A DNA stretch of 20,948 bases from a virus: positions 1 to 20,948 of IMG/VR virus record IMGVR_UViG_3300035145_001211; one strand, written 5' to 3'. A program made the translations under genes and the position numbers. The notes below the pieces were generated by a model. The model had not been told where the DNA came from. It searched no databases and worked only from the letters and a program-made list of their open reading frames with translations. How positions within the stretch are numbered: position 1 is the first letter of the stretch; each line of letters starts with the position of its first letter. This document shows positions 7,292 to 13,586 of this stretch, piece after piece.

Positions 7292-7804
7292 ATGGCGTAT
7301 AGTAAGAAATATCCTAAAATACAGAGAACTGGTGGCAGCTATCCTTCAAATCGTTTTGGCGTAGTTCTGTCAAATCTTTCTCGTCAACAAAAAAGATTGT
7401 TGATTGAAAATCCTATCATGGCAGAAAGAGCTCAAAGCGATCAATTTGTCCATATCATCTTTGAAATGTGTCAACACAGATACACGACAAAGAAGGACCG
7501 AATATATTACGACTGGTCTACTGGAAAGTTTATGAAAATGGATAAATTAAAAGAAAACTATAGGACCATAGATTGGGTTTGTGCACTCTCTGGTAAACCA
7601 ATCCGAGCTAAGACTGATGACTTCTCCTTAGAAAACTTTGTACATCCAGAGTATCATGATGTTCTGTCGTCAGCAACTATGGTTGATAGTAGGATACTCA
7701 AGTCTTCGGTTGAGTTTCGTAAGCACGTAAAAAAACTCTTATTGAATCAACAACAAGAGTTTTTAAAATTAGCTCGTAAAAATTCTAAGAAAAAATTAGA
7801 TTAA
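7292..7804 (+). CDS. Unknown basic protein, only plus-strand gene
   Basis: The protein has 170 residues, is strongly basic, and I recognise no family. It has a lysine-rich N terminus (MAYSKKYPKIQR), a central tryptophan/tyrosine-rich part (YYDWSTGKFMKMDKL, DWVCALSGKP) and a C-terminal helix ending in a lysine cluster. Only two cysteines are present, so a zinc site is unlikely. Nucleic-acid binding is a reasonable guess from charge. It diverges from gp44 and converges on the 555-codon gene, with the two stop regions overlapping by nine bases, so the two late transcripts would be antisense at their 3' ends. A late-type octamer lies four bases before the start. The lack of other plus-strand genes suggests an inserted or inverted unit. 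Confidence 0.8.
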   Translation: MAYSKKYPKIQRTGGSYPSNRFGVVLSNLSRQQKRLLIENPIMAERAQSDQFVHIIFEMCQHRYTTKKDRIYYDWSTGKFMKMDKLKENYRTIDWVCALSGKPIRAKTDDFSLENFVHPEYHDVLSSATMVDSRILKSSVEFRKHVKKLLLNQQQEFLKLARKNSKKKLD

Positions 7805-9463
7805 TTTAGAAAATCTATCTTTTATTGAAAGAGACTCTTTAATCATTTCTGACATTTCAAGTTTTCTTAACTCAGATTCTAATATAATACCTAGTTTAGT
7901 TCCTTCAATCTGCCAAGATTCTTTCTTTAAAATGTTAGCTTTTAATTCTTTAGCTTTCTTAAGCTTTTCTTCCTCTCCAGATTCTTGATATTTCTTAATA
8001 AGAGCGTCAACTCTCTTAGTCATACCTTCTTTAGAATTATCTGTTTTATCTACAGGTTCTTCTTTAGGTTCTTCTTTAGGTTCTTCTTTAGGTTCTTCTG
8101 TAGTTTCACCTCCTTCTGGTTTCTCAGTAGTTTCACCATCTCCTGAATCAGTTTCAGTATCAGATGTGGTAGTAGTTGTCATTAAATTATCAGTGTCGGC
8201 CTGTCCTGATTTTGGAGTTTGGTCAGTTGGAGTTTCCATTCCATCTTCTTTAGACTTTTCGATTGCATCATCAATCTCTCCTACCTTTTCAGGATTCTCT
8301 TCTTTAATCTTTTCTAGGCTTTTCTCCTGTTCATCTTTTATTTTCTTAATTCTCTTCTTTTGTCTCTTTTGAGCGTCTTGAATTCTATCTTCTGTTTCTT
8401 TCTTAACACTCTTTTCCATATCTGAACCAAGAGCCTTTAACTTATATTCGGCAACTGAAACTGTGATGTCATCTATCAAGTGAGCTTTAAGTTCCTTTGA
8501 CTTTCCTCCTTGTCCACCCATTGCAGTTGACAATTTATCTTCACTATACTTTTGTTCTAGAGAAGCTTCAAACTCTTTTACAGGAGCTTCAAGTTGCTCT
8601 ATTCTAACTTTCATATCCTCAATCTGATTATCCAGCTTCTTTTTCATATCAACCTTCTTCTCTTTACTCTTATCTGGTTTTTCTTCAGCTGGTGGTGTGT
8701 CGCCTTTAGGTGCATCTGTTTTAGGAGCATCGTCTTTAGGGGCATCCGTTTTAGGAGCATCTACTTTAGGAGCATCGTCTTTAGGGGCAGGTTTGTCTTT
8801 TATCTTGGAGATATTAGTTTTTACCTGGTCTAAAGATGCTTTAAGCTTATCTATTTTTGCCTGCATCTTTGGCTTTGCTTCAGCTGCAACATCAGCTTTC
8901 ATTTTTCTTAATCCGTCTATTTGCTGTTGAAGTTTTTCTTTTTGCTTTTCAAATCCTCTCAAAGCACCATCAACAAAAGACTTATTTGCCTTACTCTTTG
9001 CACTACTAACTTCATCTAAAGAAGTATCTTCATTTAGTTCTTGTCTCTTTAGTTCAAGTTGAGCCTTTGTAACCTCACTCTTAGCCAATTCCATCTTGTA
9101 TTGCTTAAGCTTAGCGTAATCAGCTTCCATACTGGCTCTGATTTTCTTGTGCTTTTTAGCCGTTTTAAGAGTGTAAGCTGCACCACCTACCGCTGCAACG
9201 GTTGTAAAAACACCAACCTTTAAAAGTGCAAGAAGAGGGTCAGCATCTAAAACTGCTTTAATCTCATCCGTGTTTTCAAGTATTAAGCTTTCATTAAGGG
9301 GAGCTGGGTCTACGAGGTCATGCTCTTCTTTTAATTGTGTAGAAAGTTCTTCTAACGATGCGAGAATAGCATCAACTTCTCTAATTACTTCTTCTTTTCT
9401 ATCTGTAGCAATTTGCTCAATAGATTCGTTAACAGAAGAATACCATTTACTAAATGTGTTCAT
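7796..9463 (-). CDS. Large lysine/glutamate-rich coiled-coil protein, possible head-core or virion protein
   Basis: The protein has 555 residues, with no family recognised. The N terminus MNTFSKWYSSVNES resembles the capsid-targeting peptides of T4 internal proteins, ending in V-N-E. L-N-E at 56-58 and 143-145 fits the gp21-type cleavage rule (L/I-x-E). A hydrophobic alanine/valine stretch spans about 77-99, possibly membrane-active. Long charged helices follow, then a proline-rich DAPKx repeat (225-255), more coiled coil (265-400), a threonine/acidic linker with an EEPK repeat (456-470) and a helical C-terminal domain. It lies directly after the major capsid gene, behind a terminator, with its own late octamer. 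An internal head protein or extra scaffold is inferred; a tail-tape or injected protein is possible. Confidence 0.7.
   Translation of the reverse strand: MNTFSKWYSSVNESIEQIATDRKEEVIREVDAILASLEELSTQLKEEHDLVDPAPLNESLILENTDEIKAVLDADPLLALLKVGVFTTVAAVGGAAYTLKTAKKHKKIRASMEADYAKLKQYKMELAKSEVTKAQLELKRQELNEDTSLDEVSSAKSKANKSFVDGALRGFEKQKEKLQQQIDGLRKMKADVAAEAKPKMQAKIDKLKASLDQVKTNISKIKDKPAPKDDAPKVDAPKTDAPKDDAPKTDAPKGDTPPAEEKPDKSKEKKVDMKKKLDNQIEDMKVRIEQLEAPVKEFEASLEQKYSEDKLSTAMGGQGGKSKELKAHLIDDITVSVAEYKLKALGSDMEKSVKKETEDRIQDAQKRQKKRIKKIKDEQEKSLEKIKEENPEKVGEIDDAIEKSKEDGMETPTDQTPKSGQADTDNLMTTTTTSDTETDSGDGETTEKPEGGETTEEPKEEPKEEPKEEPVDKTDNSKEGMTKRVDALIKKYQESGEEEKLKKAKELKANILKKESWQIEGTKLGIILESELRKLEMSEMIKESLSIKDRFSKLI
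8054..8098 (-). repeat. 12-base tandem repeat coding EEPK
   Basis: Four near-perfect copies of a 12-base unit (plus strand GGTTCTTCTTTA) encode EEPKEEPKEEPKEEP inside the 555-residue protein, residues 456-470. In-frame repeats of this kind change copy number readily without breaking the gene. Confidence 0.85.
8699..8791 (-). repeat. 15-base tandem repeat coding DAPKx
   Basis: About six copies of a 15-base unit encode A-P-K-[DVTG]-D (residues 225-255 of the 555-residue protein), alternating acidic and basic residues with proline. It probably forms a stiff extended linker between two coiled-coil regions. Confidence 0.85.
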
Positions 9464-11117: not shown

Positions 11118-13049
11118 TTATTTTTTAAATTTTTTCGCAATACTTTCTTGAATTCCTTCTAAGTTGTATGGTAATTCTTTAGTAGCTTCTTTAGATTCTT
11201 TCACTAACTCTACTTTTTCCATAACAACTTTGTTGTCTCTCAAGTCTCTTGTTTGCCAGAAGTTTCTAACTTGATAGTGTGTTTCAAGTCTGTGATACTT
11301 AGACTGTGCAAGTAATTCTTTCTTCTTAGATTCAGAAAGAGTTTCCCATTTGTCTTTGTACTCTTTTGGCATCATTGTAATAACATTAGGCTCGTTAGTA
11401 GCTTCATCAGTTACTAATGAAGAGTTCCATAATGTTGCAATTTGAGACTCAGTTAAGAAACCTTTACCTTCGACAGCTTTAGTAACTTTAGCTTGGTCTT
11501 CTTTTGAAAGTGAATTGAATTCTTCTTTCTTAGCCTCGTTAATAAATCTAAAGAAGTGTGGGTCTTTAGAAGTTTTAGCTTCTGCTTTTTCGATAAGAGC
11601 TTGAAGTTTCTCAGTGATTGAGTTTTTATACTCTTCAACGTGGTCTTCTTCTTTTTCCTCTTCAGCAACTTCTTCAGTTTCTTCTGATTCTTCAGTTACT
11701 TCTTCAGTTTCTTCTGACTCTTCAGTAGTTTCTTCAGCTTCTTCAGTTACTTCTTCAGTTTCTTCTGACTCTTCTGTAGCTTCAGTTTCTTCTTCAGCAA
11801 CCTCTTCTTCAGATTCTTCAGATTCTACTACTTCTTTAGCACCTTCTTCGCCGTCAACGATTTCTGCTTCAACCTCAGCAGCTTTATCTTCTGCTCTGTC
11901 TTTAGCGTCTTCCATTTCTTCTCCGTCGAATTCTTCTTTTTCAGTCTTATCAACTGGCTTTTCTTCTGGTTCTAGACCAGCTTCTTCACCGTCTTCTAAG
12001 ATTAGGTTATTGTTAACTGTTTCTGCAACGTACTCTGCATATTCAGTTACTTTTTCTAAATTTTCTTTTAAGTACTCTGCATACTTTACAACTGCGTCAG
12101 CTTTTAAAGCACCTTCGTTGTAAGACTCTGCTAAATAATTAGTATAGTCTTTAACAGCTTGTGTAGCTTCTGCAACATGTTCAGTATATTCTATAGAGCG
12201 CTCAACTTTTTCATTTAATTCACTATTTGCAGTAATGTTCTTGTCAACATTCTCAGCTAAATAGTTAGCGTACTCGATTGATTCATCAAGTTTTTTAGCA
12301 AGGTATGTGCTGTACTCCTTTAAATTCTCTACTTCACCTTGGATACCTTCAGAACTTTCAAAAGTCGATAAAGTTTCTTTAAGACCTTTGATTTCTTCAG
12401 ATAGGTAAGCTGAGTATTTATTGAAATCTTCAACACTTACGAATTTTGATTCAGCCATTTTTGTTTCAGTTTTATTTTCGGTAGTTAAAAGTTCTTTTCT
12501 AGGTTCAATGTCGTAAATGAACAAATTATCGTTATTATCAAAACCATAGGATTCATTTACTCTTTTCAATTCAGCATTCTCAAATCCAGGGTCTGCTACT
12601 AAATCGTATGTAAATAATTGTTTAATTTTTACAGTTCCGTTAGACTCAACAGTTCCTGCTGCTCTTGATGAAATTTGTAAAGGAACACCAGCATCTACTA
12701 AGGCTTTAGCCTGTCTTCCGGCTTCAGTATCTAATAGTCTGATTTTTCCTCTGACCTGCTTGCTTTCTTTATCATAGTGAAGTTCCTCTATAATGTGAGA
12801 AACGTTCTTTAAAGAAACGTCAAAATTTTGTGGGTGGTCCAGTTCTCCAAGAAGTTTAGACGACTTAATTTTGTCTTGAAGAGCCTCAATCTGAGGAAGA
12901 TATTCGTCTTCCGTGTAGATTCTATTGTTTCTGTTCTTTTTGTCTATTTCACCAAAAGTGCCCTCAAGTACATAAGCTCCGTCGCTTTTCTCAAACTTCA
13001 ATTCACCTGAAGACCTTTCCAGGATTAGAAGGTTTTTTAATGTACTCAT
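11118..13049 (-). CDS. Prohead protease fused to scaffold (gp21-gp22-like)
   Basis: The protein has 643 residues. Residues 1-165 are a T4 gp21-type prohead protease: GTFGEID and NRNNRIY early, then LLGELDHPQ with likely catalytic H72, QISSRA with the nucleophile among S127/S128, and the DLVADPGF motif (149-156). T4 gp21 is only about 210 residues and stops there. Here a coiled-coil scaffold follows: seven Y-x-x-Y-L-A-E-like repeats (208-344), an acidic EES/TEEV repeat tract (411-465), and a helical C-terminal domain (470-643). L/I-x-E sites (278-280, 478-480, 503-505, 532-534) would let the protease degrade it during maturation. No separate gp22 gene lies between it and gp23, so the fusion replaces T4 genes 21 and 22. 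The reading frame is continuous. Confidence 0.85.
   Translation of the reverse strand: MSTLKNLLILERSSGELKFEKSDGAYVLEGTFGEIDKKNRNNRIYTEDEYLPQIEALQDKIKSSKLLGELDHPQNFDVSLKNVSHIIEELHYDKESKQVRGKIRLLDTEAGRQAKALVDAGVPLQISSRAAGTVESNGTVKIKQLFTYDLVADPGFENAELKRVNESYGFDNNDNLFIYDIEPRKELLTTENKTETKMAESKFVSVEDFNKYSAYLSEEIKGLKETLSTFESSEGIQGEVENLKEYSTYLAKKLDESIEYANYLAENVDKNITANSELNEKVERSIEYTEHVAEATQAVKDYTNYLAESYNEGALKADAVVKYAEYLKENLEKVTEYAEYVAETVNNNLILEDGEEAGLEPEEKPVDKTEKEEFDGEEMEDAKDRAEDKAAEVEAEIVDGEEGAKEVVESEESEEEVAEEETEATEESEETEEVTEEAEETTEESEETEEVTEESEETEEVAEEEKEEDHVEEYKNSITEKLQALIEKAEAKTSKDPHFFRFINEAKKEEFNSLSKEDQAKVTKAVEGKGFLTESQIATLWNSSLVTDEATNEPNVITMMPKEYKDKWETLSESKKKELLAQSKYHRLETHYQVRNFWQTRDLRDNKVVMEKVELVKESKEATKELPYNLEGIQESIAKKFKK
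11658..11774 (-). repeat. 33-51-base acidic tandem repeat in scaffold
   Basis: Residues 426-464 repeat EESEETEEVTE three times (third ends VAE), with a related spacer. The plus strand is a run of TTCTTCAGT-type units. The high negative charge is typical of phage scaffolds and core proteins. Confidence 0.8.
12018..12428 (-). repeat. Seven degenerate YxxYLAE protein repeats in scaffold
   Basis: Residues 208-344 contain YSAYLSE, YSTYLAK, YANYLAE, YTEHVAE, YTNYLAE, YAEYLKE and YAEYVAE, spaced about 14 to 35 residues. The pattern puts two aromatics on one face of a helix and suggests a regular assembly rod. The DNA copies have diverged, so the protein pattern is under selection. Confidence 0.75.
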
Positions 13050-13073: not shown

Positions 13074-13081
13074 TATATATC
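13074..13081 (-). promoter_or_regulatory. Late-type promoter octamer before protease-scaffold gene
   Basis: The minus strand reads GATATATA, then CAACAAAC and about 24 bases to the ATG at 13049. Confidence 0.55.
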
Positions 13082-13115: not shown

Positions 13116-13586
13116 TTATGACTCTAAATCTGCAAGCTGTGCCGCTAAGTCTTCATCATCATCTGATGCTGGCTCTTCAGCTGGAACCTCTTCAGTTCCA
13201 GAATCGGCTGCAGCTGCATCTTCCTCTTCTTTTTCTTTTTCAGCTTTTTCAGCGTTTTTCTCTTCTTGATATTCATTGTAGAATTTAACAAGAGTCATAA
13301 TATCGGCTTCGGTGAATGCGCCGTTTCCATATTCGTTGTAGAAGTAATCTTTAAATTCCTTTTCTGTTTCTGAGTCAATTATTACACCTAGTATCTCAGC
13401 TCCTTTAATCTCTTCGCCAGAGTCTAAAGTAATATCATCGATTACAACATCAGAGTCTTCACCCGCTTTGACGGCATCTTCCTCAATACCATTAACAAAT
13501 TCATTGAATTTCTTAATTGTTACAGGTGCATAATTAGAATCTTCCGATTCGTTGATATAATTTGAAAAGTCTCTTAAATTTTTCAT
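13116..13586 (-). CDS. Acidic prohead-core-like protein between portal and protease
   Basis: The protein has 156 residues and is very acidic, with a C-terminal alanine/glutamate/aspartate-rich tail (PAEEPASDDDEDLAAQLADLES). The N terminus MKNLRDFSNYINES strongly resembles the capsid-targeting peptide of T4 internal proteins (MKTYQEFIAE), and its I-N-E would be a gp21-type cleavage site. In T4 the core genes 67 and 68 occupy exactly this place between 20 and 21. I cannot say which one it matches, or that it is homologous by sequence. Role inferred: a core protein packed in the prohead and trimmed by the protease. It has its own late octamer eight bases before the ATG. Confidence 0.7.
   Translation of the reverse strand: MKNLRDFSNYINESEDSNYAPVTIKKFNEFVNGIEEDAVKAGEDSDVVIDDITLDSGEEIKGAEILGVIIDSETEKEFKDYFYNEYGNGAFTEADIMTLVKFYNEYQEEKNAEKAEKEKEEEDAAAADSGTEEVPAEEPASDDDEDLAAQLADLES

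Follow-up and report, generated by a model that had tools for sequence, protein, structure and literature searches.

A fused prohead protease and predicted scaffold gene with a candidate internal start in T4-type phages of Bacteroidota

Known protease-scaffold arrangements and the locus examined

In phage lambda, the 3′ part of the protease gene, C, also encodes the Nu3 scaffold in the same frame, from an internal start of its own. The herpesvirus genes UL26/UL26.5 specify a protease-scaffold fusion and a nested scaffold-only product, with a release site between the two parts, the short form being made from a separate promoter. The cleavage motif of T4 is [LI]xE, and Shine-Dalgarno sites, used in E. 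coli, are mostly not used by the host group of the phages considered here. The core of the T4 prohead contains about 580 copies of gp22 to 55-100 copies of gp21 (PMC9958956; PMC5694885). C-terminal autocleavage has been proposed for T4 gp21 (Keller and Bickle, 1986, as cited in PMC5694885), and work also cited in PMC5694885 regards the herpes protease as a distant relative of gp21.

The window, a virus record of 20,948 bases, carries on its minus strand a late gene block of T4 type in the order end protector, portal gp20, a 156-aa acidic protein, a fused protease/scaffold gene, gp23, and a 555-aa acidic protein (Table 1). It resembles T4 in the protease family, the catalytic His/Ser, the gene order 20-(67/68)-21-22-23 and the type of site that follows the protease domain. 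However, in T4 and other phages with separate genes, the spacing of 21 and 22 ranges from an overlap of 8 nt to a gap of 68 nt, whereas the window has both parts in one frame, and no homology to gp22 was detected for its scaffold part. T4 gene 21 does have an annotated internal start, but this lies near the start of the gene, shortens the protease and yields no scaffold. As in lambda, the scaffold forms the in-frame 3′ portion of the gene, although neither lambda protein, the S49 / ClpP-like protease C nor the scaffold Nu3, is related to its counterpart here. The herpesvirus layout differs in that a candidate internal promoter was found here only in one lineage of relatives (that of L182) and not in the window.

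Other phages have comparable genes. Tenacibaculum phages PTm1 and pT24, Prevotella phage Lak and Listeria phage LIS04 are fused too, with an S77 protease and a long C-terminal part just before or near the major capsid gene, and LR756500-LR756504 and LR745206 (462-735 kb) have a fused gene, 33-45% identical, with a Met at the same place. PHROG 207 already includes fused members and the PTm1 gene is annotated “prohead core scaffolding protein and protease,” which is the usual name of gp21; in the literature we found no description of this fusion as a nested gene. We consider that protease and scaffold are probably nested in the fused gene as they are in lambda C/Nu3 or herpesvirus UL26/UL26.5, here in T4-type phages of Bacteroidota.

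Table 1. Features of the fused gene and its surroundings, in positions of the window (a slash marks the candidate cleavage point)
Feature	Position	Strand	Basis
Fused head-maturation protease / scaffold gene, 643 aa	11118..13049	-	Open frame; S77 and phrog_207 matches; intact in 188 relatives
Protease domain, residues 1-166; H72, S127 = T4 gp21 H85, S140	12552..13049	-	Pfam, phmmer, alignment, Foldseek
Candidate autocleavage (release) site V-N-E/S, residues 164-167	12549..12560	-	Alignments; same site in separate gp21
Disordered, variable, N/K/T/E-rich linker, residues 167-197	12459..12551	-	pLDDT <50 from residue 184; length and sequence vary in relatives
Candidate translation-initiation region, codons -7 to -1, A-rich	12459..12479	-	Top synonymous constraint in the window's clade; A positions
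Candidate internal start codon Met198 (MAESKF...)	12456..12458	-	Linker Met in all clusters; context score +2.25
Predicted scaffold-only product, 446 aa	11121..12458	-	Inferred from Met198
Coiled coil with degenerate Y-x-x-Y-[LIV]-A-E repeats bearing [LI]xE protease-like sites	11991..12434	-	Model helices 206-353; 6 repeats
Acidic low-complexity stretch, ~residues 355-470	11640..11987	-	Sequence; pLDDT ~30
Conserved helical C-terminal domain, ~residues 468-600	11250..11648	-	pLDDT mostly 56-86; conserved alignment block
Candidate late-promoter motif GATATATA, 32 nt before fused gene	13074..13081	-	Motif search
RATATATA positions	3687, 9488, 11090, 13074, 13595, 15235, 17634, 18447	-	Motif search

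The protease domain, the predicted scaffold and the spread of the fusion

The open frame runs uninterrupted through 643 codons between the portal and the gp23-type capsid gene (its neighbors match Portal_T4 and Gp23), and the gap of 110 nt that separates it from gp23 holds no gene. The first-pass annotation had placed protease and scaffold in one gene, with no gp22 gene before gp23, and both points held, the fusion being clade-wide. Scans of IMG/VR gave 80 loci with the window protein, 80 with a megaphage protein and 22 with the LR756500 protein (PTm1, as a viral-contig query, matched only itself), and protease and scaffold share one frame in all 188 of the 188 relatives that run past the linker, a count that leaves out two loci ending in the linker and one record without a parsable linker.

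Residues 24-137 match Pfam Peptidase_S77, the family of T4 gp21 (E 1.6e-10, 41.2 bits against a cut-off of 27), and residues 15-547 match phrog_207 (head maturation protease), as does T4 gp21 itself. The relationship was also seen with phmmer against 5jbl (E 0.0024) and with Foldseek, for which 5jbl, T4 gp21, was the best PDB match of the AlphaFold model (E 2.4e-7, probability 1.00). Both the family and the catalytic His/Ser of S77 were found, and because H72 and S127 align with the T4 residues listed in Table 1, their earlier selection as gp21 protease motifs was correct. The overall pLDDT of the model is 56, and therefore only its protease and C-terminal domain are reliable. A site of the form [VIL]xE/[SAG] ends the protease domain in all aligned T4-type gp21 proteins, fused and separate, except that of LIS04 (in T4 it is ITE/S), and in the alignments N165 and E166 are invariant in the clade.

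Several relatives have in addition a stand-alone second S77-like protein: L207 (G001:C1:156418-156672), L208 (LR756501.1 11386-11787) and L209 (LR756500.1 154951-155127). It is without the catalytic His and Ser, GELGYP/FRPR replacing GELDHP/SSRA in L207 and L208, and is a putative conserved pseudoprotease paralog.

Beyond the protease, the AlphaFold model continues with a linker of low confidence (184-214) and long helices (206-353); an acidic stretch modeled as disordered then leads to a C-terminal domain made of helices. This part has several traits of a gp22-like protein, being a coiled coil, acidic, rich in gp21-type cleavage sites and encoded directly upstream of gp23. The window scaffold contains 15 [LI]xE sites vs. 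10.6 (sd 2.6) in shuffles, and relatives with full scaffolds contain 14-24 vs. 6-13. Residues 198-643 had no PHROG match. Homology to gp22 was considered and rejected: when the scaffold alignment was compared by hhalign with seven separate proteins at the gp22 position (some annotated as hypothetical only), and with a C-terminal subset, the probabilities were 0.4 and 0.1, neither significant, although one block, LSKEDQAKVTKAVEG, was nevertheless paired with T4 LTESQKEKVSALVEG. The scaffold function is thus predicted from position, composition and modeled helices, without gp22 homology, and “gp22” is, on the sequence evidence, a positional label only for this part of the fused gene.

The scaffold of the 635-735 kb phages and their kin (L087-L090, L099-L178) consists of 13-aa tandem repeats (YSEYIAENLDKNI), near-perfect and present in 11-12 copies in the three scaffolds counted, compared with six degenerate copies in the window. 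Every 13-aa repeat has an [IL]AE site resembling the prohead protease's own cleavage motif. We dropped the idea of repeat number as a ruler of genome size, because scaffold lengths and genome sizes rank differently (~429 aa in the 462-kb LR756500, ~443 aa in 235-kb relatives).

Two acidic proteins of the window, of 156 aa (13116-13586, minus strand) and 555 aa (7796-9463, minus strand), flank the fusion and gp23. Their N-termini, MKNLRDFSNYINE/S and MNTFSKWYSSVNE/S, resemble T4 capsid-targeting sequences, which suggests that they may be internal core proteins cut by the protease of the fused gene; neighbor proteins in L007, L031, and L046 have similar N-termini, e.g., MKTFEQWYNS and MKIIKTFEEF.

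The fused branch includes LR756500 (462 kb) and LR756501/2/4 and LR745206 (635-735 kb), whereas 21 and 22 are separate genes in T4 and in cyanophage, Campylobacter, Rhizobium, Ackermann-type, PA5oct and CBB phages. A supported branch (95/93) divides the protease tree, with the separate genes to one side and all fused forms to the other; LIS04 is on a very long branch and unsure in its placement. Because this branch parts the two forms, it seems that fusion (or splitting) happened only once among T4-type phages. Of the two origins suggested earlier, that the arrangement was kept or was converged upon, this would make the likeness to lambda a convergent one. The genome-contig loci came mostly from Bacteroidota bins, consistent with Bacteroidota hosts for the branch. 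The search for a separate gp22 elsewhere in the genome, raised in the first-pass annotation, was made with the gp22 families phrog_237 and phrog_23627, which were found in control phages but went undetected in the records of 178-236 kb, 462 kb, 642 kb and 735 kb and in that of PTm1, the long IMG/VR records being of unstated completeness.

The linker methionine and its surroundings

A methionine occurs in the linker in 41/41, 21/21, and 11/11 clusters (90, 80, and 70% identity, respectively), so that the conservation of Met198 in relatives, proposed as a check by the first-pass annotation, was borne out. A stretch of equal length elsewhere in the clustered proteins contains Met ~36% of the time, and the product over clusters is 4e-11 at 80% identity and 4e-6 at 70%, values that ignore shared ancestry. 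In none of the 188 loci is the linker Met changed to Leu or Ile. The sequences that begin there vary widely (MAESKF, MEQSRF, MENQAR, MTSYVN, MEKQNS, MEDFVK, MENFVT, MENSTD, MEKNTS, MDNTTP, MDNGQY, and MNKNEF). It is the Met itself that is kept and not its surroundings, because the Met-aligned neighbors are mostly 10-45% identical (up to 67% at position -5 in the thinnest set) and the next conserved block lies anywhere from 12 to 29 residues away; in the megaphage clade the Met is kept and its neighboring residues are conserved too. In 18 of the 21 clusters the Met is preceded by 193-203 residues, close to the 209-224 aa of separate gp21 proteins, and the linker Met thus sits where a separate scaffold gene would begin.

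The linker Met is absent from the fused gene of Tenacibaculum phage PTm1, and those of pT24 and Listeria phage LIS04 have no start-like internal site; since all three are fused, a fusion can work without an internal start. The fused open reading frame of Prevotella phage Lak-A1 (L085) has a possible internal start, M212, with a start-like context score of +2.35.

The A-rich stretch reported earlier upstream of Met198 was confirmed, the preceding 20 nt being 75% A, in the top percentile of the open reading frame. With a start-context model built from the clade's other genes (AUC 0.98, starts vs. internal Mets), Met198 scored +2.25, the gene's own start +2.39 and the other internal Mets of the frame at most -4.5. 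The linker Met had a median of +2.1 (the better-scoring being used where two exist, a small bias), compared with -6.8 for the remaining in-frame Mets of these genes and +5.9 for true starts. The local RNA at Met198 is unstructured (95th percentile). In the window, A is present at -3, -6, -12, and -13 of Met198, positions at which A raises initiation in Flavobacterium johnsoniae as determined by ribosome profiling (PMC6847099), and at least three of these four are A in 6 of 21 lineages vs. 15 of 160 control Mets (p 0.02). A codon-shuffle control pooled across lineages gave a mean z of only +0.49, which is weak, and much of the A-rich context therefore follows from amino-acid choice.

Synonymous constraint was measured as codon identity over sequence pairs sharing a residue, corrected for pair divergence and amino acid. 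In the window's clade the top 6-codon window of 519 was that of codons -7 to -1 before Met198 (3.55 sd), and a set of 14 sequences under 92% identity left it in first place (3.38 sd). The same test gave no such constraint in the codons after Met198 in the window's clade and no peak at the linker Met in the megaphage clade. A conserved candidate internal start with initiation signals was found in the window's clade and is absent in the Tenacibaculum phages, and we think it likely, judging by these signals, that Met198 is used as an internal start in the window's clade.

The motif RATATATA occurs eight times in the window vs. a shuffle mean of 2.9, always on the minus strand and just upstream of a minus-strand gene, and in most lineages it lies 24-39 nt before the fused gene, making it a good candidate for the late promoter of the phage. 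It was not found within 150 nt upstream of the linker Met in the window or in most other lineages, and an internal promoter in the window, sought upstream of Met198 by motif search, was rejected. In the L182/L188/L194 lineage, GATATATA lies inside the coding sequence 47-50 nt before the linker Met; the top window of 536 for synonymous constraint in this lineage is codons -18 to -13, reading GGATATATAGAA, and the embedded motif codons GGA TAT ATA GAA (GYIE) are invariant. Because of this embedded motif, the lineage probably makes a scaffold transcript as well.

How the scaffold may be supplied

In the nested arrangement that we favor, translation from the first ATG would give a low number of protease-scaffold fusions, and initiation at Met198, on the same mRNA and in the same frame, would give the scaffold alone as the commoner product. 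The two would pack together into the prohead core via their shared coiled-coil and C-terminal parts, and because these parts are common to both products the fusion would carry the protease into the core. Once the shell is complete, the protease would free itself at V-N-E/S, at the end of its domain, and then cut the scaffold at many [LI]xE sites. We infer Met198 use, product ratio and co-assembly here, and the cleavage sites are drawn from T4 biology. The nested reading of the first-pass annotation gained from the clade-wide fusion, the conserved Met198, the synonymous constraint in the window's clade and the missing gp22 families; what it overlooked is that the Tenacibaculum phages are fused without an internal ATG, and an internal start is therefore not required for the fused architecture as such.

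It is feasible that all scaffold is made as the fusion and split after assembly at V-N-E/S, Met198 going unused. The retention of [VIL]xE/[SAG] in fused and separate gp21 alike, with N165-E166 invariant, fits this account, as do PTm1, pT24, and LIS04, fused without a start-like internal codon. It leaves unexplained, however, a universal linker Met with variable surroundings, the synonymous peak before Met198 and the promoter embedded in the L182 lineage, and it would supply one protease per scaffold subunit, unlike T4, whose scaffold:protease ratio, by our reasoning, the fusion alone cannot attain. We regard this account as unlikely, and the release site and an internal start are in any case compatible with each other.

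Alternatively, Met198 may be an ordinary protein residue, e.g., in the first turn of a scaffold helix, the A-rich context reflecting the N/K/T/E codon content of the linker. That the codon-shuffle test attributes most of the start-like score to amino-acid content would agree with this, as would the megaphage clade, in which neighbors are conserved too and there is no synonymous peak, but a Met that is never Leu or Ile in 188 loci, at 12-29 residues from the helix block, and a peak in the window's clade already corrected for amino acid and divergence make such a residue quite improbable. The scaffold could also have its own transcript, from a late promoter inside the gene, and not arise by internal initiation on the long mRNA. 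This is what RATATATA 47-50 nt before the linker Met of L182/L188/L194, in invariant codons, would suggest for that lineage; since the window and most lineages have no motif within 150 nt upstream of the Met, and the window's late genes all have one, we consider it highly improbable as the general route.

A wider reading of the nested gene, which we put forward tentatively and with some doubt, is that a Bacteroidota branch of T4-type phages, including the largest known phages, may build its heads from one nested gene by Kozak-like internal initiation free of Shine-Dalgarno pairing, and that one lineage, by adding an internal late promoter, may have recreated the UL26/UL26.5 layout. The repeat-built scaffolds of the 635-735 kb phages give a clue to the shaping of very large heads. 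A concrete candidate, with a start codon that can be tested, is now available within the protease gene of the T4-type huge phages of Bacteroidota. If true, the nested arrangement would extend the protease-scaffold nesting of lambda and the herpesviruses to a third, T4-type setting and would be a clear example of internal, in-frame initiation that dispenses with Shine-Dalgarno pairing.
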